Source of the DNA: a virus
Virus record (IMG/VR): IMGVR_UViG_3300021962_000474
Coordinates: 1 to 29,064 of that record
Length of the DNA: 29,064 bases
Strand: one strand, 5' to 3'
Shown in pieces: positions 9,359 to 28,792 of this stretch. The notes beneath the pieces were generated by a model that had not been told where the DNA came from, searched no databases, and saw only the letters and a list, made by a program, of their open reading frames with translations. The first letter of the stretch is position 1. The number at the start of each line of letters is the position of its first letter. Made by a program: the position numbers and the translations under genes.

Positions 9359-9385
9359 AAAGGGTGCTTTCGGGCACCTTTTCTT
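9359..9385 (+). terminator. Rho-independent terminator after gp32
   Basis: Stem AAAGGGTGC (9359-9367) with GCACCTTTT (9374-9382), nine pairs including one G-T, followed by a short T-rich tract. It ends the replication operon. Confidence 0.9.
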
Positions 9386-9386
9386 G

Positions 9387-9394
9387 TATAAATA
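9387..9394 (+). promoter_or_regulatory. T4-type late promoter
   Basis: TATAAATA is an exact match to the T4 late -10 consensus, just after a terminator and 26 bases before the start of the homing-endonuclease-like gene, which lacks another promoter. Confidence 0.7.
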
Positions 9395-9419
9395 CTACTG
9401 CGACTTACAGAGTAGAACT

Positions 9420-10031
9420 ATGGAACTCAAAGAGTATCACTATGTCTATTATTCCTATGAGGAATATGGTAGAGGATATTTTGGTAGTAGAACTTGTAAA
9501 TGTCTTCCAGAAGAAGATGTAAAATATTTTGGTTCTTATAGTGATAATACATTCAATCCAACTCAAAAAATAATATTGAAGAGTGATTATTTTACAAGAG
9601 AAGAGGCATATGATGATGAGATTATTTTACAACAATATTATAAAGTAGTAGAGAATACTCATTTTGCAAATAAAGCATATCAAACTACAAGTAAATTTTT
9701 CTATATTCCTACTAAAAATTCTTCTAAAAAAAGAAAATCAATGTCGCAAGAACAAAAAAATAAACTGAGTGATATTGCTAAAGGTAGAAAAATGAGTGAA
9801 GAGCAAAAACAAAAAATATCTGAATCTAACAGAAATAAAAAAGTTAGTGAAGAGACTAGAAAAAAAATGAGTGATTCTGCTAAAAAAAGAATTTATAAAA
9901 ATAAAGAGGAATGGATAGAAAAAATAAAAAGAGGTAGGAAAGGACAATCTTCTTGGAATAAAGGAGTTCCGCATAAAAAAGAAACTAAACAAAAGATATC
10001 AAAGACTTTAAAGTCTAAGAATAAAGTCTAA
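9420..10031 (+). CDS. GIY-YIG-like homing endonuclease with NUMOD3 repeats, 203 aa
   Basis: The N-terminal 90 residues carry a divergent GIY-YIG core: VYYSYE, then GRGYFGSR (the YIG strand and its following Arg) and, further on, FTREEAYDDEIIL with a candidate catalytic Glu. From about residue 105, three or four NUMOD3-type DNA-binding repeats follow (MSQEQKNKLSDIAKGRKM, MSEEQKQKISESN, VSEETRKKMSDSAKKR, KKETKQKISK). Such free-standing enzymes spread by cutting alleles that lack them. The start at 9420 is chosen because the upstream frame runs through the terminator. It is more AT-rich than its neighbours and its end overlaps the convergent gp53 gene by 17 bases. Confidence 0.85.
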   Translation: MELKEYHYVYYSYEEYGRGYFGSRTCKCLPEEDVKYFGSYSDNTFNPTQKIILKSDYFTREEAYDDEIILQQYYKVVENTHFANKAYQTTSKFFYIPTKNSSKKRKSMSQEQKNKLSDIAKGRKMSEEQKQKISESNRNKKVSEETRKKMSDSAKKRIYKNKEEWIEKIKRGRKGQSSWNKGVPHKKETKQKISKTLKSKNKV

Positions 10032-12558: not shown

Positions 12559-13010
12559 TACTTGATACCTAACTCGTCTTCTGTGATAACTTTAAACTGT
12601 ATCATTCTATCATCACACCATTCTTGAATTGATTTCCATTTGGATTGATTGACGATATAAGTATTTACTTCATTGATGAGGGTTTTATTTTTTTTATTGC
12701 CTGGTACTGGAGGCATAGTTTGTTTTTTTGGTTTTATTTCTATGACATATTTTTGTATGTTTCCCCCATCTTCTAATACTTCAATAATAAAATCTGGAAA
12801 ATATCTACAAATCCTTTGTTTGACTGGATTATAATATGGAATGCAAAATTCTTCCGAACCATAACGAAGTATATTGGGAGATCTATCACACCATTGCATA
12901 AACTTAAGTTCCCATCCACTACGATATACTATGTTTTGTGGATCTCCAATATATTTTTTTGGATTTCTTGGGTGAAAATATCCTTGATGATATTTTGAAT
13001 CACGTGGCAT
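12558..13010 (-). CDS. 4: Head completion protein gp4
   Basis: A 150-residue protein, the same size as T4 gp4 (gp50/65), which completes DNA-filled heads before tail joining. The fold is that of a small PD-(D/E)XK nuclease: YRSGWELKFMQW (Glu34), YFPDFIIE (Asp73) and VIEIKPKKQ (Glu91, Lys93) supply the catalytic-type residues. The start at 13010 (MPRDSKYHQG) agrees with the family; a longer in-frame ATG at 13043 would add eleven residues that overlap the upstream homing-endonuclease fragment. It heads the original minus-strand operon. Confidence 0.88.
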   Translation of the reverse strand: MPRDSKYHQGYFHPRNPKKYIGDPQNIVYRSGWELKFMQWCDRSPNILRYGSEEFCIPYYNPVKQRICRYFPDFIIEVLEDGGNIQKYVIEIKPKKQTMPPVPGNKKNKTLINEVNTYIVNQSKWKSIQEWCDDRMIQFKVITEDELGIK

Positions 13011-13434
13011 TTTTCCAACCTTTATGAGACTTTCTTTTTCCACATAAAACTTGTCCTATGTGTGATGGATTTAGATTTAATTTTTTGCATATGTGAGATA
13101 TACAATCAAATTCAATTATTTCACCTTCTTTTGAAATTATTTTTCCTCCCTTTTGAAATTGTGGATATTCACATCCTTTATTAAGTGCTGGTTTTCCTTT
13201 TCTTTTTTTAGAAGATGCTTCTATTGCTTTACGCATATCCCTTCCCTTTGCAATTTCACTCATTTTCTTTTTTGTTTTTTCAGAATGTTTTAGGTTTAAC
13301 ATTCCCGAAAAATTATATTTATTTTGAGTTACTTCAAAAGTATCTTCTATTATCTGTGCTCCACTAATATTAAATACTTTACATAAGTTTGTCGTATCAA
13401 ATTTATAAGTAATTAATTTTTTATTTTCTGCCAT
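13000..13434 (-). CDS. Homing endonuclease remnant: DNA-binding modules only, 144 aa
   Basis: Residues about 48-75 hold a NUMOD3-type repeat (HSEKTKKKMSEIAKGRDM), followed by KRKGKPALNKG, and the C-terminal 50 residues match a NUMOD1/IENR1-like helix-turn-helix (DCISHICKKLNLNPSHIGQV, then LCGKRKSHKGW). These are the DNA-recognition modules of phage homing endonucleases, but no HNH, GIY-YIG or LAGLIDADG nuclease motif is present in the first 47 residues. It is therefore a fragment, or a regulator derived from one. The start MAENKK (13434) is preferred to ATG 13488, which would overlap the divergent gene. Its end overlaps gp4 by 11 bases. Confidence 0.75.
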   Translation of the reverse strand: MAENKKLITYKFDTTNLCKVFNISGAQIIEDTFEVTQNKYNFSGMLNLKHSEKTKKKMSEIAKGRDMRKAIEASSKKRKGKPALNKGCEYPQFQKGGKIISKEGEIIEFDCISHICKKLNLNPSHIGQVLCGKRKSHKGWKNAT

Positions 13435-13465
13435 TATCCCGACTACATAATATATCAAGTAAAAG

Positions 13466-13473
13466 TATTTATA
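13466..13473 (-). promoter_or_regulatory. T4-type late promoter for the minus-strand block
   Basis: The minus strand reads TATAAATA, a perfect late -10 consensus, 32 bases before the start of the homing-endonuclease remnant and in the divergent gap before the tail operon. It should drive the remnant, gp4 and probably all genes down to gp53. Confidence 0.75.
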
Positions 13474-13478
13474 GATAG

Positions 13479-14240
13479 ATGCCTGCACCTAGTCCATCTA
13501 AAAAGGTATTATCAGATTTAAAAGCGTCTATTTTAAATCCAGCTTTAACATCTCATTTTCAGTGCTGGTTTAACCCACCAAGTTTAGTTCAGGAGTGGAT
13601 GTCGCAAAAGGCAAATGCTGGACTTGGAATTGTTTATGGGAGCAATTCAGAATTTTTCTCCGTATCATGTTCTGAAGCATCATTGCCTGGTTCTTCTTTA
13701 GCAACACATGAAATTAATAATGACTATAGTGGTGTAACTGAAAGACATGTATATAGAAGACAGTATGATGATAGAGCATCATTTACATTTTATGTTGATC
13801 ATGACTATAATATAATTTACTTCTTTGAAAATTGGATTTCGTTTATTGTAAATGAACAATTTGCTGATGCTAATGGAATACCTGGTATTGAAGATCCAAA
13901 TCATTTTTATAGAGTTAATTTTCCAAAACAATATCAAACAGAAATTTATTTGAAAAAATTTGAAAGAGATTATACTGGTAGAATACTACAGTATAGATTT
14001 TTAAATGCATATCCAATTAGCATTGATTCAATGCCAGTTTCTTATGATTCATCTCAATTATTAAAGTGTACCGTGTCATTTAACTATTCAAGATATATTG
14101 TTGGTGGAGGAGAAAATATAAATGTTAGTAACAGCGAAGGACCTCTACAAAATAATTTTGGTTTACAGCAATTGCCGGGTAATATCGGTGGATTTACTGG
14201 AGCTGGGTTTGAAGGATTTGCTCCACCAAATGTTGCTTAA
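13479..14240 (+). CDS. 54: Tail tube-like baseplate protein, probably gp54
   Basis: A 253-residue protein of the tail tube family. Tube-like features are the strands around FTFYVDHDYNIIYFFENWIS, the ENWISFI helix, and the later IYLKKFERDYTGRILQYRFL then NAYPISIDSMPVSYDSSQLL. This arrangement is shared by T4 gp19 (tube) and gp54 (tube initiator). It is longer than a gp19 and sits next to gp48, gp53 and the hub genes, which favours gp54, the initiator that binds gp48. The C-terminus is a Gly/Phe-rich tail. No ribosome binding site is obvious. Confidence 0.6.
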   Translation: MPAPSPSKKVLSDLKASILNPALTSHFQCWFNPPSLVQEWMSQKANAGLGIVYGSNSEFFSVSCSEASLPGSSLATHEINNDYSGVTERHVYRRQYDDRASFTFYVDHDYNIIYFFENWISFIVNEQFADANGIPGIEDPNHFYRVNFPKQYQTEIYLKKFERDYTGRILQYRFLNAYPISIDSMPVSYDSSQLLKCTVSFNYSRYIVGGGENINVSNSEGPLQNNFGLQQLPGNIGGFTGAGFEGFAPPNVA

Positions 14241-14274: not shown

Positions 14275-14994
14275 ATGCCTTTACCAAAGATCTCTACGCC
14301 AACATATGAGTTGGAATTGCCTTCAACTGGACAAACAATTCAGTACCGTCCATTTCTAGTTAAAGAAGAAAAACTATTAGTATTAGCATTAGAAAGTGAG
14401 AATACAAAAGAGATTACAACTGCGATTAAAAATGTAATCAAATCTTGTATTCATACAAAAGGAATTAAAGTAGAAACTCTACCTACTTTTGATATTGAAT
14501 ATCTGTTCTTAAACATTCGTGGCAAGTCTGTTGGAGAAGAAATCGAAGTCAATATCATCTGTCCGGATGATGGGGAGACTTATGTTCCTGTCAAAATCAG
14601 TATTGATGATATTAAAGTAGAAAAGAAAGAGGAACATACTAACAAGATTCGAGTTGATAAATCAATCGTGATGGAAATGAAGTATCCATCACTGGATCAG
14701 TTCATCAAGAGTAACTTTGATTTTAATTCTGATGGTGCAATGGATCAATCATTTGATTTAGTTGCAACATGTATTGATAAGATTTACACTGAACAAGAAG
14801 TGTGGGCTGCTGCCGATTGCACGAAGAAAGAACTGGTAGAATTCCTTGAGCAAATGAATTCGACTCAATTCAAAGAAATTGAGAAGTTTTTTGAAACGAT
14901 GCCTAAACTTTCTCACGAAATCAAAGTCACAAATCCCAATACTGAAGTTGAAAGCACTGTTGTGCTGGAGGGACTCTCAAGTTTTTTCGCATAG
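14275..14994 (+). CDS. 26: Baseplate hub/chaperone protein, gp26-like (T4 baseplate family)
   Basis: A 239-residue protein of the T4 base plate family (T4 gp26 type). Typical parts are the start LPKISTPTYELELPSTGQTI and the next segment IQYRPFLVKEEKLLVLALES, then NVIKSCI, and IEYLFLNIRGKSVGEEIEV with ICPDDGE, a small ribbon-like insert. The second half is helical and acidic. In T4, gp26 acts in hub assembly together with gp51. Its last codons are AGT TTT TTC GCA TAG, containing a slippery heptamer followed by a hairpin, so a minority product fused to the downstream gp51-like frame is predicted. Confidence 0.82.
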   Translation: MPLPKISTPTYELELPSTGQTIQYRPFLVKEEKLLVLALESENTKEITTAIKNVIKSCIHTKGIKVETLPTFDIEYLFLNIRGKSVGEEIEVNIICPDDGETYVPVKISIDDIKVEKKEEHTNKIRVDKSIVMEMKYPSLDQFIKSNFDFNSDGAMDQSFDLVATCIDKIYTEQEVWAAADCTKKELVEFLEQMNSTQFKEIEKFFETMPKLSHEIKVTNPNTEVESTVVLEGLSSFFA

Positions 14995-15019
14995 CTCTAG
15001 TCCACATGGACTTGGAGAG
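14982..15019 (+). promoter_or_regulatory. Predicted -1 programmed ribosomal frameshift signal
   Basis: The slippery heptamer T_TTT_TTC (14982-14988) is in the correct phase. After a 6-nt spacer comes a stem-loop: CTCT (14995-14998) with AGAG (15016-15019), AGTCC (14999-15003) with GGACT (15008-15012), loop ACAT, and a TGG bulge. The -1 frame continues without stop into the gp51-like ORF, giving a 299-residue fusion. Confidence 0.75.
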
Positions 15020-15173
15020 TTACTTCAAGCTTAATTTTTCATTAATGCAATACCATAAATATTCATTAACGGAGATTGAGAACATGATGCCTTGGGAACG
15101 AGACATCTATGTTGAGTTATTAAGAGCTCATTTAGAAGAAGAAAAACTAAAACAACAGCAAAATGGGTCCTGA
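15006..15173 (+). CDS. 51: gp51-like hub assembly protein, 55 aa, or frameshift extension
   Basis: A short helical protein (SYFKLNFSLMQYHKYSLTEI, then ENMMPWERDIYVELLRAHLE) ending in a Lys/Gln-rich tail. The LTEIENMMPWERDIY motif is typical of small tail-assembly chaperone extensions and of gp51-like proteins of cyanophages. As an independent gene it has no clear ribosome binding site, and its ATG lies in the loop of the hairpin that follows the slippery site. The frame is open upstream to the heptamer, so translation as the C-terminal part of a gp26-gp51 fusion is equally or more likely. It overlaps the next gene by 11 bases. Confidence 0.7.
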   Translation: MDLESYFKLNFSLMQYHKYSLTEIENMMPWERDIYVELLRAHLEEEKLKQQQNGS

Positions 15174-17184
15174 CGAGTTAGATGATTTACTGGCAAGTAT
15201 AAGAGCGGAAGGTAAGAAAGATTCCGCTCTTGCTTTGTATGAAGGTGTTCGTGAGGATGATTTAGTTGATGAGAATGTAGACGAAAGAATATTAAAATTA
15301 CTTGGACTCGATGATGTTTTTGATATTGACTATGGAACTTATACCACTCTTTTAAAAGAAAGACTTGCAGCATCCAGAAGTTTCAGCAAAAAACTTTCCA
15401 CAGAAGAAGACGAACTACTTGTTGAAGAGTTTAGAAAAGTCAAAGGAAAGGTTGGTAGATTTAAGATAAAGAGAAAAAAAATATCAGCAGAGAATCTTGG
15501 AGTAAGAGGTCCTGTCAAAGTTTCTACCGAAAGATTTTATTTGACATCAAAGGCAATCATGCCTCAACCAACACCTGTTACTGGAGAGCAATCGGAAGAT
15601 ATTAAGGATATCAGTGAAGCACTTGATGAGTTATTGAAAAGTATTATCGGGCAGAACAAAGAAGAAAAGAAAAAAGCAGACGAAAGTAGAAAAGAAGACG
15701 AACAAAAGAAAAGAGTAAAAAGAGAAGCAGAATTAGAAAAACCGATTAAGAAAGCACTTGGATTGGTTAAAAAATTAGTAGCACCATTCCAAAGTATTCT
15801 GGATAGAATTATGAAATTCATTCAGTTTACTTTCATTGGATTCTTGGTTGATAAGGTTTTAAAATGGTTTGCTGATCCTGCAAATGAGAAGAAAATAAAA
15901 ATCCTTGGTAGATTCTTAAAGGATTGGTGGCCTTCATTAGCATTTGCTGCTGGATTATTCTTGACTCCGCTTGGAGCATTTGTTCGCGGAACTATTAAAA
16001 TGTTGAGAGGATTTATTCCTCAAATGGTTAGATTTATGGCTGCTCATCCAGCAATTTTTCTTGCTACAACAGGAGCACTTGCTGCTGGTGCTGGTGAAAT
16101 GTTTAGGCAGAAAGAAGAAAAGAGACAAGTAGAAAGAGAGGCAAAGCAGAGAAATGTAAAACCTGAAGTTGTAAAGAAAGAACTTGTAGAAGCACAACGT
16201 TCTCCCCTTGCAATATTTGGTGAAGCAATGCAAAACATTTCTGGCGTTGCTGGTGGTGGACAAATCAGAAGAAGAAAGTCTTTCTTTGGTGGCGGCGGTA
16301 GAGAAGTTAATGTAAAAGATATTGCATTTGATGGTGGCGGTGGAATTTCTGATGACAGTGGATTAAGAGTTACTGGAGCAGGACCTGATACTCAATTGAT
16401 TGCTGCTCAACCTGGCGAAGTCATGATGTCCAAAAAGGCAGTTGATAAGTATGGGGCAAACTTCTTCTTGGGATTAAACAAGAGAGCGGGTGGAACTAAT
16501 ATTCCACGGATGGTAAACAACATTCAACTTGCTCAAGGCGGCGGAATGATTGGTAAGACAATGAATTTCTTGGGAGGGCTTGGGTTACCTGGAACTGGTA
16601 GTGTAATGGCACCAAATTATACTGGAATGGGGTATCAAAATAAGTTTCTTGGAATAAATTTGAATAGAGTTAATCTCCCGCAAATTCCTGGTAGACAATT
16701 TTCACAATCTGAAGTTCAAAGATATAATCAATCTCCCACTGCTCCAAGTACAATTAGAAATTGGAGTCCTTATGACCCCGTTCAAGTGAGTGTGCCCAAA
16801 GCAACAAGTTCTGGGCAAGGAAGTTCTTTTGTTGGTGATGCTTTTAGAAATTTTGGACAGAATGTAAAAACAATAAAGGGTTCCGCAGCGCGTCAAGAAA
16901 TAATGATGCGTGAAATGGGCGTCAAACCATCTGGATATGTAAATCTTCGCGGACAACCAATCAATTTAGGTCCACAATCTAGAGCGATGCCTGTTGGAAC
17001 ACCAACAATCATTTCTAGAAGTCAAACCATTGTGCTGCCACCACAAACAATGCCAGGCAAAAAACCAAGTGTTCCAGTTAAGACGGGAACACAAATACCC
17101 GATGTTTCAATTGTTGCCACAATTCCTCATAGAGAAATGGTAATTCGTTCTCTTGGAATCGGTGACTTAATGGGAGTAGGATGA
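15163..17184 (+). CDS. Tape-measure-like tail protein 1, 673 aa
   Basis: A long tail protein located directly after the chaperone pair, the standard place of a tape measure gene. Residues about 160-205 are a charged coiled coil (EEKKKADESRKEDEQKKR); SILDRIMKFIQFTFIGFLVD (about 209-228) begins a hydrophobic part with membrane-like helices near 254-275 and 296-312. Later regions are glycine-rich with a conserved segment (GPDTQLIAAQPGEVMMSKKA) and a Pro/Gln-rich end. It shares the SILD...FT..G.L.DK segment with the next gene. T4 gp29 is 590 residues. Whether this or its paralog sets tail length cannot be decided. Confidence 0.7.
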   Translation: MGPDELDDLLASIRAEGKKDSALALYEGVREDDLVDENVDERILKLLGLDDVFDIDYGTYTTLLKERLAASRSFSKKLSTEEDELLVEEFRKVKGKVGRFKIKRKKISAENLGVRGPVKVSTERFYLTSKAIMPQPTPVTGEQSEDIKDISEALDELLKSIIGQNKEEKKKADESRKEDEQKKRVKREAELEKPIKKALGLVKKLVAPFQSILDRIMKFIQFTFIGFLVDKVLKWFADPANEKKIKILGRFLKDWWPSLAFAAGLFLTPLGAFVRGTIKMLRGFIPQMVRFMAAHPAIFLATTGALAAGAGEMFRQKEEKRQVEREAKQRNVKPEVVKKELVEAQRSPLAIFGEAMQNISGVAGGGQIRRRKSFFGGGGREVNVKDIAFDGGGGISDDSGLRVTGAGPDTQLIAAQPGEVMMSKKAVDKYGANFFLGLNKRAGGTNIPRMVNNIQLAQGGGMIGKTMNFLGGLGLPGTGSVMAPNYTGMGYQNKFLGINLNRVNLPQIPGRQFSQSEVQRYNQSPTAPSTIRNWSPYDPVQVSVPKATSSGQGSSFVGDAFRNFGQNVKTIKGSAARQEIMMREMGVKPSGYVNLRGQPINLGPQSRAMPVGTPTIISRSQTIVLPPQTMPGKKPSVPVKTGTQIPDVSIVATIPHREMVIRSLGIGDLMGVG

Positions 17185-17185
17185 T

Positions 17186-20023
17186 ATGGCAGTTATAGAT
17201 TCTAAAAAACTATTACCATCTGGTAACCCCGGTGGTTCTATTACAGAGTCCCAAAAACCATTTTTGGTTCCTGTAAGTAATATCATCTATAAAAAAGATG
17301 TTAATATATCTCCAAAACTTTTAAAACCAGCAGATAGAGAAACTCAAGAACCTGGTGGTAGTCTTGTTGTAGTCAAAAAGAAAGTTTTAAAAATTAAAGA
17401 TGTTATTAATAGTACTTACTTAATTCAACAAAGTGAAAATAATCGTAAGAGAAAAGAAAAACAAAGACAAAAAGCAGAAGATAGAGAAAAAAAATTAGAA
17501 ACTAAACCAGGAGGAAAGGTAGATTTTAATAATCTATCAAAGATATCTCTTCCTGGAAGAAGTATTCTTGATACGATTAATCGCTTCCTTGCATTCACTC
17601 TAGCAGGTTATTTGTTTGACAAATATAATCAATATCTTCCCAAGTTATTAGAGTTTGGAAAGTATATTGAGCCTGTTACTAGGTTTATTGATGCATTTGC
17701 TAAAAATGCTGTTGATGGAATTATTAAATTTATTGACTTGGGATATAAAACATATGATAAAGTCAGTGAAACAATTAAAAATATTGGTGGTAAAGACGCA
17801 GCGAAAACATTTAATGAGTTTTCTGGAGAACTAAACAAATTATTGAATGGTGCCATCATGGCATCAATGTTAATTGCAAGTACTGCTCCACGTTCACGAA
17901 GAGGTGTATCTGGTGCTCTTGGTGCTGGCATGGGCGCTGGAAAAACTTTAGGTGGAATTTCAAAACCAACGAGTGGGTTTGGTGCTGGAACAGCGATGAC
18001 TCCTGGTAGATATAGAGCTCCTGGACAAGCAAAAGTAAGTTCTTTTGATTTGGCTCAAGCAAGAAAAGGTTTAACTTTTGAACAGTCTGTTGCAGCAAGA
18101 AAAACTACGCAAGCAGCAGCAACTCAAGCAACAAAACAATCTTTAAGAACGGTAACGGCAGTTCCAATTATTGGTGCTTTGATTGGTTTTATTGTTGATA
18201 CTGTTGTGTTCCGTGAAAAACCATCTAGAGCAGCAGCAGGTGCAGTTGGAAGTGCTCTTGGACAAGGAATTGGAATTGCTCTTGCCGGTGGAACGACATT
18301 TGGACTTGGTGCTGGGGTTGGTATGTTTGTTGGTGGTTTTGTTGGTGATTGGATGGGTAAATCTTTATATGATACTTTAACAAGTTATAATCCAGCACCA
18401 ACTCAAGCAAGAGCGCAAGGAGGACAGATAAGAGGAGGACAATCGGGTGTTTCTCCAACAAGAAAAATTAAGACACAACAATCTCCACGTCCTAAAACTT
18501 ATACTGCACCAAAAACACAACCAGGAAGAGACATTGGTGGTAAATTAAAAATTGAAGAACTCTATGGCAAGGATGAACCAGGAAAAAGAAGTGCATTAAG
18601 AGCACTCACAAAAAGTTCAATAGACTTGAAGAAAATGAACTCCATGCATGGAGTTACTGGTGGTATGCTTGGTGCAGGTATTGACATGGCACTCGGACAA
18701 AAACCAGATAAAAAACTTTCAAACTCTCTTGGAAGTATGTTTGGTTCTGTAGTTGCAGCAGCAGTAAATGCCGAACTTGATTCTTCTTTTAATGATATTT
18801 CAAAAGCAATTGCCATGGCAAGTGGTGGAGTGGTTCCATCAAGAGAAATTAAAGGAGGTATGAGTATTGGTGAGAAGATTGGTAAGTATATCTCAAATGC
18901 ATTTTCTATTGCACTTGAAAGTTCTGCTGCAAAAGTTTTAAGTAATTTAAATCAAGAGTTGAATTTAGAGGGTGGCGCTCCTGGTGAACCTGGAGATGGT
19001 GGTGCAGGAGGTACTGGTGGATATGCAGAAGGAGCGGAAAATTTTGTGTCTTCTAAAGAAGTCTATGCATATCTGAAAAGCAAAGGACTTTCTCACAATC
19101 ATGCTATGGGAATCCTGGCAAATATACAGGCAGAATCTTCATTCAATGCAGGAGCAATTGGAGATAGTGGAACATCTGGTGGATTATTTCAACATCATGC
19201 AGAAAGATTTGAAGGAATGGTTGCTTTTGCCGGAAAAGATTGGGCAAAAAATTGGAAACGTCAGGTTGATTATGCTTTGAGGGAAGCAGCTGGAAAACAA
19301 TACGCACAAAAACAGTTTAATAGTCCCGAAGAAGCTTCCGAATGGTTCACTCTTAATTTTGAAAAACCTGAATATAAAGAACAAAAAGCAAAGGATCGCC
19401 TTCAGAATTTGCAAAACTTTGGTGCGGATGGTTCTTGGAAAGGTATGAAAGGAGTTTCATCTAAACCAACACAAGGATCATTATCTACGGTTCTTCCAAA
19501 AGGCAATCCTCAATTTACTAGTGGATTTGGTTCAAGATTTGGAAGACAGCATCAAGGTATTGACATTGGTGTTGATGCAAATTCTCCTGTCATTGCCTTA
19601 CAAGATGGCAAAGTCGTTGACATTTATAGAAATTTTGGTGGACATGGAGATGGAATCGTTGTTCAAAATTCTGACGGATCTAAAGTTGTATATGGACATG
19701 TAAATTCAAATGTATCAATAGGATCAAAAGTTAAAAAAGGGCAAACAATTGCTAATGTTAAAGGTTGGTATAATGCATATGGAAATAGAGATAATACTCA
19801 CTTACATTTGGAGAGATATGTTGGCGGAACTGCCCAAGATCCAAGTGGATATTTGAATTCTCTTTATAAACAAAAACAACCAAAACCAAAATTACAAGCA
19901 TCATTAGCACCATCTCAACAATCAAGAGAGATTGCATCTATTCAACAAAATCCTTCATATAGTCAAGGTGGTAGTATGATAATTCATGATGTAAATAACA
20001 TAGTAATGCCAGTGATAGGTTAA
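17186..20023 (+). CDS. Tape-measure-like tail protein 2 with lysozyme and M23 peptidase domains, 945 aa
   Basis: The N-terminal part has a basic coiled coil (residues 85-115) and SILDTINRFLAFTLAGYLFD (about 131-150), homologous to the previous gene, then hydrophobic Gly/Ala-rich helices (for example near 325-395). About 622-745 is a phage tail lysozyme-type domain (HAMGILANIQAESSF, likely catalytic Glu650, then SGGLFQHH). About 770-890 is an M23 metallopeptidase: HQGID (His789, Asp793) and HLHLE (His872, His874) form the zinc site. Together these would cut glycan and peptide cross-links of the host wall during DNA entry. The start has the site GGGAGTAGGA upstream. All catalytic-type residues are intact. 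Confidence 0.85.
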   Translation: MAVIDSKKLLPSGNPGGSITESQKPFLVPVSNIIYKKDVNISPKLLKPADRETQEPGGSLVVVKKKVLKIKDVINSTYLIQQSENNRKRKEKQRQKAEDREKKLETKPGGKVDFNNLSKISLPGRSILDTINRFLAFTLAGYLFDKYNQYLPKLLEFGKYIEPVTRFIDAFAKNAVDGIIKFIDLGYKTYDKVSETIKNIGGKDAAKTFNEFSGELNKLLNGAIMASMLIASTAPRSRRGVSGALGAGMGAGKTLGGISKPTSGFGAGTAMTPGRYRAPGQAKVSSFDLAQARKGLTFEQSVAARKTTQAAATQATKQSLRTVTAVPIIGALIGFIVDTVVFREKPSRAAAGAVGSALGQGIGIALAGGTTFGLGAGVGMFVGGFVGDWMGKSLYDTLTSYNPAPTQARAQGGQIRGGQSGVSPTRKIKTQQSPRPKTYTAPKTQPGRDIGGKLKIEELYGKDEPGKRSALRALTKSSIDLKKMNSMHGVTGGMLGAGIDMALGQKPDKKLSNSLGSMFGSVVAAAVNAELDSSFNDISKAIAMASGGVVPSREIKGGMSIGEKIGKYISNAFSIALESSAAKVLSNLNQELNLEGGAPGEPGDGGAGGTGGYAEGAENFVSSKEVYAYLKSKGLSHNHAMGILANIQAESSFNAGAIGDSGTSGGLFQHHAERFEGMVAFAGKDWAKNWKRQVDYALREAAGKQYAQKQFNSPEEASEWFTLNFEKPEYKEQKAKDRLQNLQNFGADGSWKGMKGVSSKPTQGSLSTVLPKGNPQFTSGFGSRFGRQHQGIDIGVDANSPVIALQDGKVVDIYRNFGGHGDGIVVQNSDGSKVVYGHVNSNVSIGSKVKKGQTIANVKGWYNAYGNRDNTHLHLERYVGGTAQDPSGYLNSLYKQKQPKPKLQASLAPSQQSREIASIQQNPSYSQGGSMIIHDVNNIVMPVIG

Positions 20024-25184: not shown

Positions 25185-26126
25185 ATGGAAGTATCTGATA
25201 TTCACGTAGGTAAACAACTACAAGTAAATTATAGTATTCAAGGAGCAACTCCTAATCCACCTTTGTGTTTTGGATTTGGACCTACTGCAGTTCCTGGAAC
25301 TGGATTCTTTAATGGCGGACTTTTAGTTGGTAATCCACTCAACTTCCCGATTCCAAACATACCAGAAGCAGCATGTATGATTGGGCGTCCTGAACCCATA
25401 TCAAATCCTCTTGCTTCTAAGACTCCATCTATTTTTAAGATAACCAATAAAGGTTCTGCACTTCCACCAACTCCAATTGATGTGGTGATTGGAGAACCTG
25501 CAAAGGGAGTCGTTGGTATTTCTATCAACTCTTTAAGCATTAGTATCTTTAACAATACAAATGTATCAATCATTTCTCCATACACAACTGGTGTTGGTGT
25601 TTTAAATTGGGTTGGAGCTAAAACTCTTACTGGTGTCGAAAACTTAACAGGTGCAAAAGCGCAGGCAGGTGCAGAAGCAAGAAGCAGCACTAAAGTTTTC
25701 AACGGAATTGTTCAAGTTAATGGACTTATTAAGTCTGATATTTGCAAATCTGATTTGGGAATATTTAAATCCGTTGCAGCTCCATTCAAAAAATTTGATA
25801 TCCCACATCCAACAAAATCAGGATATCGTCTTGTTCACACATGTCTCGAAGGTCCTGAAATTGGGGTTTACTATAGAGGAAAATTAGTGGATAATAATAT
25901 AATAGAACTCCCAGAATACTGGAGAGGTTTGGTTGATCCAGAAACAATCACTGTAAACTTAACACCCCATGGTTGTTACCAAGAGTTATTTGTTAATAAA
26001 ATTGAGTGGGGAACCAAAGTGATTATTCAAAATAACTCTGGAGGTCCTATCAACTGTAGTTATGTTGTTTATGCTGAAAGAAAAGATGTTGACAAACTTG
26101 AAATTGAATATAAAGAGGAAGAATAA
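25185..26126 (+). CDS. Fibre-like structural protein with C-terminal cyanophage fibre domain, 313 aa
   Basis: The N-terminal 100 residues are Gly/Pro rich with PxxP patterns (FGFGPTAVPGTGFFNGGLLV), possibly packing in the baseplate. The middle has a short repeat (GAKTLTGVENLTGAKAQAGA), likely a trimeric stalk. About 200-313 is a domain common in cyanophage fibre proteins: FDIPHPTKSGYRLVHTCLEG, then ELPEYWRGLVDPETITVNLT and INCSYVVYAERKDVDKLEIE. This domain is shared with the small protein two genes downstream. It is probably a host-contact or fibre-anchor protein. Confidence 0.7.
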   Translation: MEVSDIHVGKQLQVNYSIQGATPNPPLCFGFGPTAVPGTGFFNGGLLVGNPLNFPIPNIPEAACMIGRPEPISNPLASKTPSIFKITNKGSALPPTPIDVVIGEPAKGVVGISINSLSISIFNNTNVSIISPYTTGVGVLNWVGAKTLTGVENLTGAKAQAGAEARSSTKVFNGIVQVNGLIKSDICKSDLGIFKSVAAPFKKFDIPHPTKSGYRLVHTCLEGPEIGVYYRGKLVDNNIIELPEYWRGLVDPETITVNLTPHGCYQELFVNKIEWGTKVIIQNNSGGPINCSYVVYAERKDVDKLEIEYKEEE

Positions 26127-26128
26127 AC

Positions 26129-27547
26129 ATGTTATCGACTGATCTTATTGCGGATGCAACAAAAAAGGTAGAACAAAAGGAATACAACATTGAATATTTT
26201 CAAGATCAAATCGTATTGATTGATAATGAAAAATCTTTGTATGATGGCGGAATTGTAGCATTGGACTCGGATGTTTTCAATTCCATCGAAGACTTAAATA
26301 ATTCTTTTGTTGGTGTTCAATCTGCATATCAGGATAGAATTAATGTTGGATGTAGAACAGATTTATTCTGGAGAGTTATCGGTCAAATAGATGATGGGTT
26401 AGGCGGTTACGAATACACATTATCTGTTACTCAACTATCTGTTGTTGGATATAGTTCAATTGGTATTGGAACTACGACAGTTGGCATTGGCACCGATGAA
26501 TTGGCTGTTGTCGAATCTAATGGTGGAATTTCTACTTATCCTCGCACAACACAAATTGGAGTTGAACAGAGAAATAACTATGGATTAAAATATTATGATG
26601 AACCATATGCAAAAGATATTGGTGACACCTTTATAACAAGTTTCATTGGAACTATTTCTCTTGGTTCTAATAAACTTACCGTAATGAGTCCTGTCGGTGC
26701 GGGTATTTCTGAACTATTTCAGGTAGGACAAATTGTAACCACATCAAAAGTCGGAGTTTTTCCAATTCTAACTCCAACAAAAATTACAGGAGTTGGGACA
26801 ACAGAAGTTGATTTAACCACAGTTAATCCTGGTATTGGAACTGCATCATCAATTGTAAACATCTTAACACTTGATACTGTTGCTTCTACATCTGTAAAGG
26901 CTCCAGAAGCTGATGGTTCATTTGTGGGATTTACCGTAATATCTGATCCAGCAGGCGTTGCTTCTGAAGGTAGAAGAAAATATGAATTAAATTTCTTCTC
27001 GAATCCATTTAATCCTCAAACTGTCGGTATTATGACAAGAGGAAACATTGGTATTGGCGTATCTGTTGCTTTAGATAGTTCTGGCAAACCTTCAGCATCT
27101 CAAGGATGGAATCCAGATTTGAATGGATATGAAATTGATGGGACAACTATCGTTCCTCCAAATGTTGGTGCTGATAAAATTTTCTACACTGTAGGATTTA
27201 CATCCACTCCATCATATCTTGGAACACCTCAAGGAATTGGAGCATCTATTACCGTATCTTCATTGGCATCGTTATATACTAGTTTGCCAACTTGTTCAAC
27301 TGAAGACGCAACTTTAGCAACAAAAATTGGTATTGCTTCTGCAAAAGAAACTGCATTCATTGATGATGCTGGTGATGTCAATTTAAAAATCAATGCATCT
27401 AATGCATTGAGACTTGAAAGAAATGAATATTACTTAAGAATCTGGGGACTTAGACAATCAATCGGAAAGGAAAATGAGGAGATAGATAGATATAATTCTC
27501 TTAAAACTTACATCGGATTATCAACAATTAGTGGTACTATAGGATGA
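26129..27547 (+). CDS. Virion structural protein, 472 aa
   Basis: A helical N-terminal region (residues 1-50; DLIADATKKVEQKEYNIEYF) is followed by a long beta-rich part with VGIGT/IGIGT repeats (SIGIGTTTVGIGTDE around 110-124, and again GNIGIGVSV), typical of cyanophage structural proteins. The C-terminal 60 residues are helical (NALRLERNEYYLRIWGLRQS), possibly a coiled coil with the N-terminus. AGAGGAAG upstream is a good ribosome binding site. No known T4 counterpart is evident. It lies between two fibre-domain genes, so a baseplate-peripheral or fibre-connector role is likely. Confidence 0.7.
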   Translation: MLSTDLIADATKKVEQKEYNIEYFQDQIVLIDNEKSLYDGGIVALDSDVFNSIEDLNNSFVGVQSAYQDRINVGCRTDLFWRVIGQIDDGLGGYEYTLSVTQLSVVGYSSIGIGTTTVGIGTDELAVVESNGGISTYPRTTQIGVEQRNNYGLKYYDEPYAKDIGDTFITSFIGTISLGSNKLTVMSPVGAGISELFQVGQIVTTSKVGVFPILTPTKITGVGTTEVDLTTVNPGIGTASSIVNILTLDTVASTSVKAPEADGSFVGFTVISDPAGVASEGRRKYELNFFSNPFNPQTVGIMTRGNIGIGVSVALDSSGKPSASQGWNPDLNGYEIDGTTIVPPNVGADKIFYTVGFTSTPSYLGTPQGIGASITVSSLASLYTSLPTCSTEDATLATKIGIASAKETAFIDDAGDVNLKINASNALRLERNEYYLRIWGLRQSIGKENEEIDRYNSLKTYIGLSTISGTIG

Positions 27548-27831
27548 AAATTAAATTAGAAAATCAAGAGTTAGAATACTCTTATCCAGGCACACCAGAA
27601 AACTGTGTCTTTCTGAGAGGTAGAGCAAACAAACCTCTAATTAAACTTCCAGATGAATGGGAAGAGTTTGTGGATTTAACTACTCTTTCTGTTCACTTAA
27701 CTCCAATCGGAGCCAATCAAAATATTATTGTAAAAAGAACTCAAGGACTGGAAGTTCACCTGCAAACCAATGGACTGCCTGTAGACTGCTACTACTTGAT
27801 TTTTGGACAGGTGCTTGACAAGGCACTCTGA
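27544..27831 (+). CDS. Stand-alone fibre-domain protein, 95 aa
   Basis: The protein is essentially the last domain of the 313-residue fibre-like protein upstream. Matching stretches are LIKLPDEWEEFVDLTTLSVH against IIELPEYWRGLVDPETITVN, LTPIGANQNIIVK against LTPHGCYQELFVN, and VDCYYLIFGQVLD against INCSYVVYAERKD. It starts in an ATGA overlap with the preceding structural gene. It could cap or compete with the fibre, or be assembled in the same ring. A free-standing copy arose by duplication or by domain loss. Confidence 0.75.
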   Translation: MKIKLENQELEYSYPGTPENCVFLRGRANKPLIKLPDEWEEFVDLTTLSVHLTPIGANQNIIVKRTQGLEVHLQTNGLPVDCYYLIFGQVLDKAL

Positions 27832-28317: not shown

Positions 28318-28325
28318 GTTTTTAT

Positions 28326-28398
28326 GGGAGTGTAGTCCAGCGGAAGAGACAGAGCACTTAAAATGCTTCCAGGGTGGGTTCGAATCCCACCACTCCTA
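28326..28398 (+). tRNA. tRNA-Leu (anticodon UAA)
   Basis: All arms can be drawn: acceptor GGGAGTG with CACTCCT (one G-T), D stem GTC/GAC, anticodon stem GAGCA/TGCTT with loop CTTAAAA giving anticodon TAA, T stem GTGGG/CCCAC with loop TTCGAAT, and discriminator A. CCA is not encoded. The variable loop is only five bases (CCAGG), whereas leucine tRNAs normally have a long variable arm. Confidence 0.85.
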
Positions 28399-28447
28399 TT
28401 GGGAGTTCTAACCAACTTCTAAATAAACAAAAGTAGGAAACAATCCT

Positions 28448-28720: not shown

Positions 28721-28792
28721 GCCCTTGTAGCTCAGTGGTAGAGCAACGGTTTTGTAAACCGTTGGTCGTCCGTTCAAATCGGATCGGGGGCT
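28721..28792 (+). tRNA. tRNA-Thr (anticodon UGU)
   Basis: Acceptor GCCCTTG with CGGGGGC (including G-T pairs), D arm GCTCAGTGGTAGAGC, anticodon stem ACGGT/ACCGT with loop TTTGTAA (anticodon TGT), T arm GTCCG-TTCAAAT-CGGAT with one G-T pair, discriminator T. CCA is not encoded. It would read ACA codons, frequent in this AT-rich phage. Confidence 0.93.

Follow-up and report, generated by a model that had tools for sequence, protein, structure and literature searches.

Phage lambda makes its two tail assembly chaperones (TACs), G and GT, with the slip site G_GGA_AAG. For T4-like phages, the abstract of a later study of their TAC genes reportedly names genes 26 and 51 and describes frameshifting as conserved in several T4-like groups. 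The lambda frameshift has been characterized in a series of papers (Levin 1993; Xu, Hendrix and Duda 2004, 2013 and 2014; reviewed in PMC5009743). The two lambda products are made at a ratio of ~30:1, which is important for tail assembly; the tape measure is bound through the G part and the tube subunits through the T part (PMC5009743). G-T frameshifting was described as widely conserved except in T4 (Atkins et al. 2016; PMC5009743). The TAC genes of T4-like phages have since been treated by Vladimirov, Gautam and Davidson (2022, Virology 566:9-15), as represented in the papers that cite this work (PMC10885494, PMC12846349 and PMC11131426). According to those papers, some T4-like phages encode the short and the fused form in two separate genes (PMC10885494), and poly-T is a known slip site in the TAC-N genes of T4-like phages (PMC12846349).

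The window and its genes

The stretch of DNA analysed here, referred to as the window, is a whole sequence of 29,064 bases from a marine virus, the full length of the IMG/VR entry IMGVR_UViG_3300021962_000474. It was assigned to a cyanomyovirus because it contains a fragment of photosystem II D1, PhoH, a single-strand binding protein (SSB) and T4-like tail genes. The features referred to in the text are listed by position, with the strand in brackets where it matters and with the type of evidence at the end of the line (SD, Shine-Dalgarno sequence).

61-654: 3' part of a psbA-like gene (photosystem II D1), at the start of the window
14275..14994 (+): gp26-like gene, short tail assembly chaperone (TAC-N), 239 aa; PF12322, phrog_150, AlphaFold model
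14967..14972 (+): SD-like GGAGGG, candidate internal 5' stimulator, 9 nt before the heptamer; sequence, codon bias
14982..14988 (+): T_TTT_TTC, the slippery heptamer, at which the P site would go from TTT to TTT and the A site from TTC to TTT; conservation, codon test
14988..15173 (+): -1 frame TAC-C domain (gp51-like), 61 aa after the shift, stop TGA at 15171-15173; phrog_634
14989..14994 (+): 6-nt spacer GCATAG, including the 0-frame stop TAG at 14992-14994; sequence
14995..15019 (+): bulged 9-bp stem-loop, candidate 3' stimulator; folding, covariation, synonymous-shuffle test
14999-15003 with 15008-15012 (+): core stem of the stem-loop, covarying
14995-14998 with 15016-15019 (+): lower stem of the stem-loop, lineage-specific
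15006..15008 (+): ATG of the type annotated as the gp51 start, without SD; kept in the window clade, missing in many other clades
15163..17184 (+): 673-aa gene, tape-measure-like candidate, without SD; 11-nt overlap with the end of gp51
28325-28399: tRNA-Leu(taa), near the window end
28721-28792: tRNA-Thr(tgt), near the window end

Two homing-endonuclease-like ORFs (phrog_314) are located at 9384-10031 (+) and 13000-13488 (-), one adjoining the single-strand binding protein gene and the other overlapping a gp4-like head closure gene. Near the other end, phrog_17490 and phrog_28536 are both matched by 25185-26126 and by 27544-27831, a partial duplication flanking a 472-aa ORF (26129-27547) that has no PHROG match. 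The gp51-like frame is followed by two genes, of 673 aa and 945 aa, whose matches to tape-measure profiles are weak. The second of them (17186-20023), directly after the tape-measure-like gene, is a tail gene encoding a phage tail lysozyme domain and then Peptidase_M23.

A -1 frameshift signal at the end of the gp26-like gene

The gp26-like protein matches PF12322 (T4_baseplate) over residues 9-239 with an E-value of 4.7e-77 and 259 bits, against a curated cut-off of 24.5, and it matches phrog_150 with an E-value of 1.6e-81. The last codons of its ORF, AGT TTT TTC GCA TAG, place the heptamer in frame. In the -1 frame, the translation reads RIALVH and then MDLESYF..., and it is open until the TGA. 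The phrog_634 (gp51) profile aligns with this frame from residue 2, that is, with the residues before the ATG included (E 1.6e-28). The predicted fusion comprises 238 + 61 = 299 aa. An earlier note on this DNA, made from its letters, had described the in-frame T_TTT_TTC near the gene end, the 6-nt spacer, the bulged 9-bp stem-loop, a -1 frame running through the gp51-like ORF and products of 239 and 299 aa, and each of these is borne out. It had also placed the gp51 ATG in the hairpin loop, which is correct for the A and the T; the G is paired, so that the codon straddles loop and stem.

By itself the heptamer means little, since TTTTTTN occurs in frame six times in the 8429 ORF codons of the window; only the copy at the end of gp26 lies within 100 codons of a stop. 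The hairpin (CTCT-AGTCC-ACAT-GGACT-(TGG bulge)-AGAG) has 9 bp. The minimum-energy fold has 12 bp and -12.8 kcal/mol, with a z-score of -1.9 and 12 of 200 dinucleotide shuffles equally stable, and the stability of the window hairpin alone is therefore not exceptional.

Considering the comparative evidence given below, we read the locus as a programmed -1 ribosomal frameshift in a TAC-N/TAC-NC gene pair, with a probability of about 0.94. We infer that most ribosomes would finish the gp26-like TAC-N of 239 aa, and that a minority would slip by one base on U_UUU_UUC and read on into the gp51-like domain, giving a TAC-NC of 299 aa. In this event, tRNA-Phe in both sites would change its pairing from UUU-UUC to UUU-UUU, and two elements probably promote the slip: the SD-like GGAGGG, which ends 9 nt upstream, and the hairpin, which starts 6 nt downstream. 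If lambda G/GT is a guide, the tape measure protein would be coated by many TAC-N and a few TAC-NC molecules, with the C domain bringing in tube subunits. A literature search turned up no usable cyanophage proteomics in which the fusion is seen.

Conservation of the heptamer and of the -1 frame

The sample comprised 256 loci with a complete gp26 end, taken from 16 named phages and from the best matches of four queries. T_TTT_TTN was present near the gp26 end in 254 of these best-matching and named loci, corresponding to 102 out of 104 clusters at 80% protein identity and 19 out of 20 at 50%. The last base of the heptamer is C in 74 of the 102 clusters, A in 18 and T in 10. In all of the 80 best-matching IMG/VR relatives, TTTTTTC precedes the stop by exactly nine bases. 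In those of the 256 loci that include its end, the -1 frame terminates between +158 and +200 nt beyond the gp26 stop, and none of the 256 has an earlier stop. The first residue following Phe-Phe in the predicted fusion is Arg in many of the relatives. The examination of the heptamer and of -1 frame stops across relatives, proposed in the earlier note, thus came out in its favour. The Vibrio phages K369 and 1.255.O form the sole sampled lineage without the full heptamer, having A_CTT_TTC or A_CTT_TTT, in which only a U_UUN tetramer is kept. In 1.255.O, a TAATG start overlaps the gp26 stop; together with the lost heptamer, this suggests that the lineage may use reinitiation instead.

The codon before TTT ends in T in every cluster, although the encoded residue varies (AGT, GAT, TCT, AAT and ACT). 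Given the amino acids and the codon usage of gp26, finding a preceding T plus TTT in 102 out of 102 clusters has a log10 P of -35.7, a value that ignores shared ancestry and concerns a site chosen for its TTTTTT, and which should be taken as very strong but not literal. Chance or a constraint on the protein could mimic such a signal if Phe-Phe were needed at the end of gp26 and base composition supplied T-rich codons; these genes are AT-rich, and even the T4 gp26, which does not frameshift, keeps Phe-Phe. However, the split genes of T4 and of Enterobacter phage Q7622 encode this pair as TTC TTT after GAG, which is not slippery, and other Phe-Phe pairs within gp26 are rarely in slippery form. 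This explanation also leaves the open and constrained -1 frame unexplained, and the conservation of that frame argues strongly against it. With the codon test pointing the same way, we give the chance explanation next to no credence.

The constraint on the -1 frame extends upstream of the gp51 ATG. In the six codons between heptamer and ATG, compared in 78 distinct close relatives, mean entropy was lowest at position 2 of the -1 frame (0.31) and highest at position 3 (1.03). The rest of the gp51-like domain shows the same pattern, with 0.38 and 1.15, respectively. Judged by these values, coding constraint in the -1 frame already acts upstream of the ATG, which counts for the fusion because a separately translated gp51 would not need it.

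The gp51 start codon and its annotation

A separate, small gp51 would be made if ribosomes initiated independently, or reinitiated, at the ATG at 15006, 11 nt past the stop, in which case the heptamer would be incidental. The window does have an ATG, as do all 28 window-clade clusters within the first ten codons of the domain, and cyanophage annotators call gp51 a gene of its own. Outside the window clade, however, ATG, GTG and TTG are all absent from these ten codons in 46 of the 74 clusters, and even within it one locus (L047) has ATA in place of the gp51 ATG. In the window, no SD was found before the ATG. Adding the conservation of the heptamer at the nucleotide level and that of the pre-ATG residues in the -1 frame, we consider a separate gp51 to be very unlikely as the explanation of this locus. 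As a general rule, independent gp51 translation was rejected, since start codons are missing in many clades.

Programmed frameshifting therefore remains the preferred reading, and in most other clades, where gp51 lacks its own start codon, the fusion appears to be the only obvious route to gp51. Dual use is conceivable in the window clade because the ATG is kept there, and separate initiation could add to frameshifting in these phages. The coexistence of both modes, suggested in the earlier note, is favoured by this retention and disfavoured by the missing SD and by the clusters of other clades without a start, and we put it forward for the window clade only tentatively.

Since start codons are missing in many clades, gp51 has been annotated from internal methionines or left out. 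The public record of P-HM2 (NC_015284.1) starts gp51 at an internal methionine and gives it 31 codons, stop included, and those of syn9 (DQ149023.2) and Melnitz-2 (MZ577096.1) do likewise, with 48 codons, stop included. The records of S-CAM4 (NC_031900.1) and Aeromonas phage AS-yj (MF498774.1) omit it. Despite the annotation, the -1 frame domain is intact in all five phages, which offers a practical correction of gp51 annotation in several reference cyanophages.

RNA elements flanking the heptamer

Across 76 distinct rows of the alignment, 85.5% of the cells in the 5-bp core stem hold standard pairs, and pairing falls to 50-53% when the partner is slid by one column. Cells with a double change number 43, against a shuffled mean of 11.3, and none of 500 shuffles was as high. 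By the measure of such compensatory changes, the hairpin core covaries. The 4-bp lower stem differs by lineage and is paired in 48.7% of the cells across relatives, and an alternative register was no better; a fixed lower stem was thus rejected, and conservation is claimed for the 5-bp core only. In 101 clusters, the 45-nt stretch beginning 2 nt after the heptamer folds more stably than its synonymous shuffles, with a mean z-score of -2.66 compared with -0.37 for control stretches in gp26 (P 4e-18; P 4e-9 with the other clades alone). In some clades (L192, L166 and L163), heptamer and -1 frame are intact but no stable hairpin was predicted downstream, and the element is thus not present in all relatives. 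Its conservation across relatives, raised in the earlier note, accordingly applies to the core, whereas the lower stem varies and some clades lack the structure.

Upstream of the heptamer, codon choice at the SD-like position is biased. Glu is encoded by GAG in 53 of 76 cases, against a background of 30%, and Gly by GGG in 21 of 102, against 7%; both counts, made on the 102 clusters, ignore shared ancestry. This bias is as expected for an internal SD stimulator, for which GGAGGG is a candidate. An internal SD is a known element of bacterial -1 signals, and in the rules established for E. coli, U_UU.Y tetramers rank second, behind only A_AA.G (PMC4066793).

The same fusion would result from transcriptional slippage on the T run if one U were added to some of the mRNAs, and the site is a T6 homopolymer, extended to T7 in a few relatives (L082 and L188). 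A run of six, as most relatives have, is short for slippage by a polymerase. Moreover, the base following the run can be C, A or T, yet the X_XXY_YYZ phase persists, and a covarying hairpin at ribosomal spacing, together with the SD-like element, suits a ribosomal mechanism. Transcriptional slippage is on these grounds extremely improbable, and ribosomal frameshifting is the mechanism that we retain.

Possible coupling of the 673-aa gene

The first 11 nt of the 673-aa gene are shared with the end of the -1 frame. The anti-SD energy for the start of this gene is +1.2, compared with -2.9 or lower in 16 of the 24 checked window genes. In nearly all window-clade relatives the two frames overlap by 1-20 nt, mostly without SD. 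Owing to this overlap and to the missing SD, translation of the 673-aa gene may be coupled to termination of the frameshift product: only slipped ribosomes would end beside the start at 15163, and these could reinitiate. In the window clade, the frameshift might then also set the level of this tape-measure-like gene via reinitiation, and tape-measure synthesis would be tied to TAC-NC. SD-independent starts are common in cyanobacteria, and for this reason the coupling is proposed as a hypothesis only, which we regard as possible but rather doubtful.

Predicted fold of gp26 and relation to T4 gp26 and gp51

The AlphaFold model of the gp26-like protein has a pLDDT of 86.5. Among the PDB candidates compared with its residues 1-96, the TAC of HK97 (2ob9) ranked first, with a Z-score of 7.9 (rmsd 4.1 over 84 residues), which, being under 8, is middling. 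It was followed by 3fgx (Z 7.6) and YqbN (3klu, Z 7.3), likewise middling and both presumably XkdN-like phage tail proteins, then by 5ir0 (4.9) and others at 4.1 or below. Foldseek also retrieved 2ob9 first, but with an E-value of 0.87, which is not significant. Neither Foldseek nor VIA-align gave an informative PDB match for the T4 gp51 model, and the sequence profile matched nothing relevant in the PDB; the fold evidence is that of the gp26 model. This model is supportive, not conclusive, of a tail assembly chaperone fold in the N part of the gp26-like protein.

A profile built from 99 conceptual fusions was compared with a set of seven proteins. T4 gp26 matches positions 10-237 of the profile and T4 gp51 positions 23-282, while other T4 tail proteins gave no convincing match. 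The C-domain profile matches residues 206-245 of T4 gp51 (domain E 7.9e-8 in the seven-protein set), and T4 gp26 and gp51 match each other by blastp (E 1.4e-5). In the AlphaFold model of a T4-type gp51, the elements follow one another as in the gp26 model, and three helices are added at the C-terminus. The short form finds its counterpart in T4 gp26, and the whole fusion, N and C domain together, in T4 gp51.

Considering these alignments and a predicted gp26 fold nearest to the HK97 TAC, the identification of gp26/gp51 as a TAC-N/TAC-NC pair equivalent to lambda G/GT is supported. The earlier note had suggested this counterpart, and the heptamer, the open -1 frame with its coding constraint and the hairpin lend it further support. 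It had also taken T4 to use separate genes; 26 and 51 are indeed two complete genes in T4, on opposite strands and without a slippery site. The frameshift pair is kept by most sampled relatives, other Straboviridae included: Cronobacter phage S13, Vibrio phage R11Z and Aeromonas phage AS-yj retain T_TTT_TTC and the -1 domain. The simplest history would start from an ancestral frameshift pair, which in the T4 lineage underwent duplication and became two separate genes. The T4 gp51 'assembly catalyst' can accordingly be re-read as a putative TAC-NC.

Comparison with known systems

The slip site is U_UUU_UUC here and G_GGA_AAG in lambda. The window protein belongs to the T4 gp26/PF12322 family, for which no sequence similarity to lambda gpG was established here, and the window site further differs in being flanked by a hairpin and an SD-like element. 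In phage Adele and the TACs of Vandenendeviridae/Andersonviridae, a -1 shift takes place at a conserved poly-T, GTTTTT, at the end of TAC-N, and the downstream ORF is, as in the window, a C domain only; these are other phage families than that of the window, and stimulators are not described in the relevant passages of that paper (PMC12846349).

The T4-like TACs of Vladimirov, Gautam and Davidson (2022), as represented in the citing papers, are the same proteins with a poly-T slippery site as here, the window phage differing as an uncultured cyanomyovirus fragment. Since that study identified the TAC genes of T4-like phages, the lambda-type TAC frameshift in these phages is already known, and the equivalence with G/GT is not new. 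Set against what the citing papers relate of it, the covarying hairpin, the candidate SD-like stimulator, the wrong gp51 annotations and the possible coupling of the next gene are new to us. The -1 ORF of the window encodes the C domain only, unlike T4 gp51, in which the N and C domains occupy one ORF. T4, the exception in the 2016 review (PMC5009743), can thus be addressed by sequence, its gp26 and gp51 appearing as the split counterpart of the frameshift pair. The window adds one more phage with a predicted lambda-type frameshift, its RNA signal being described in unusual comparative detail.
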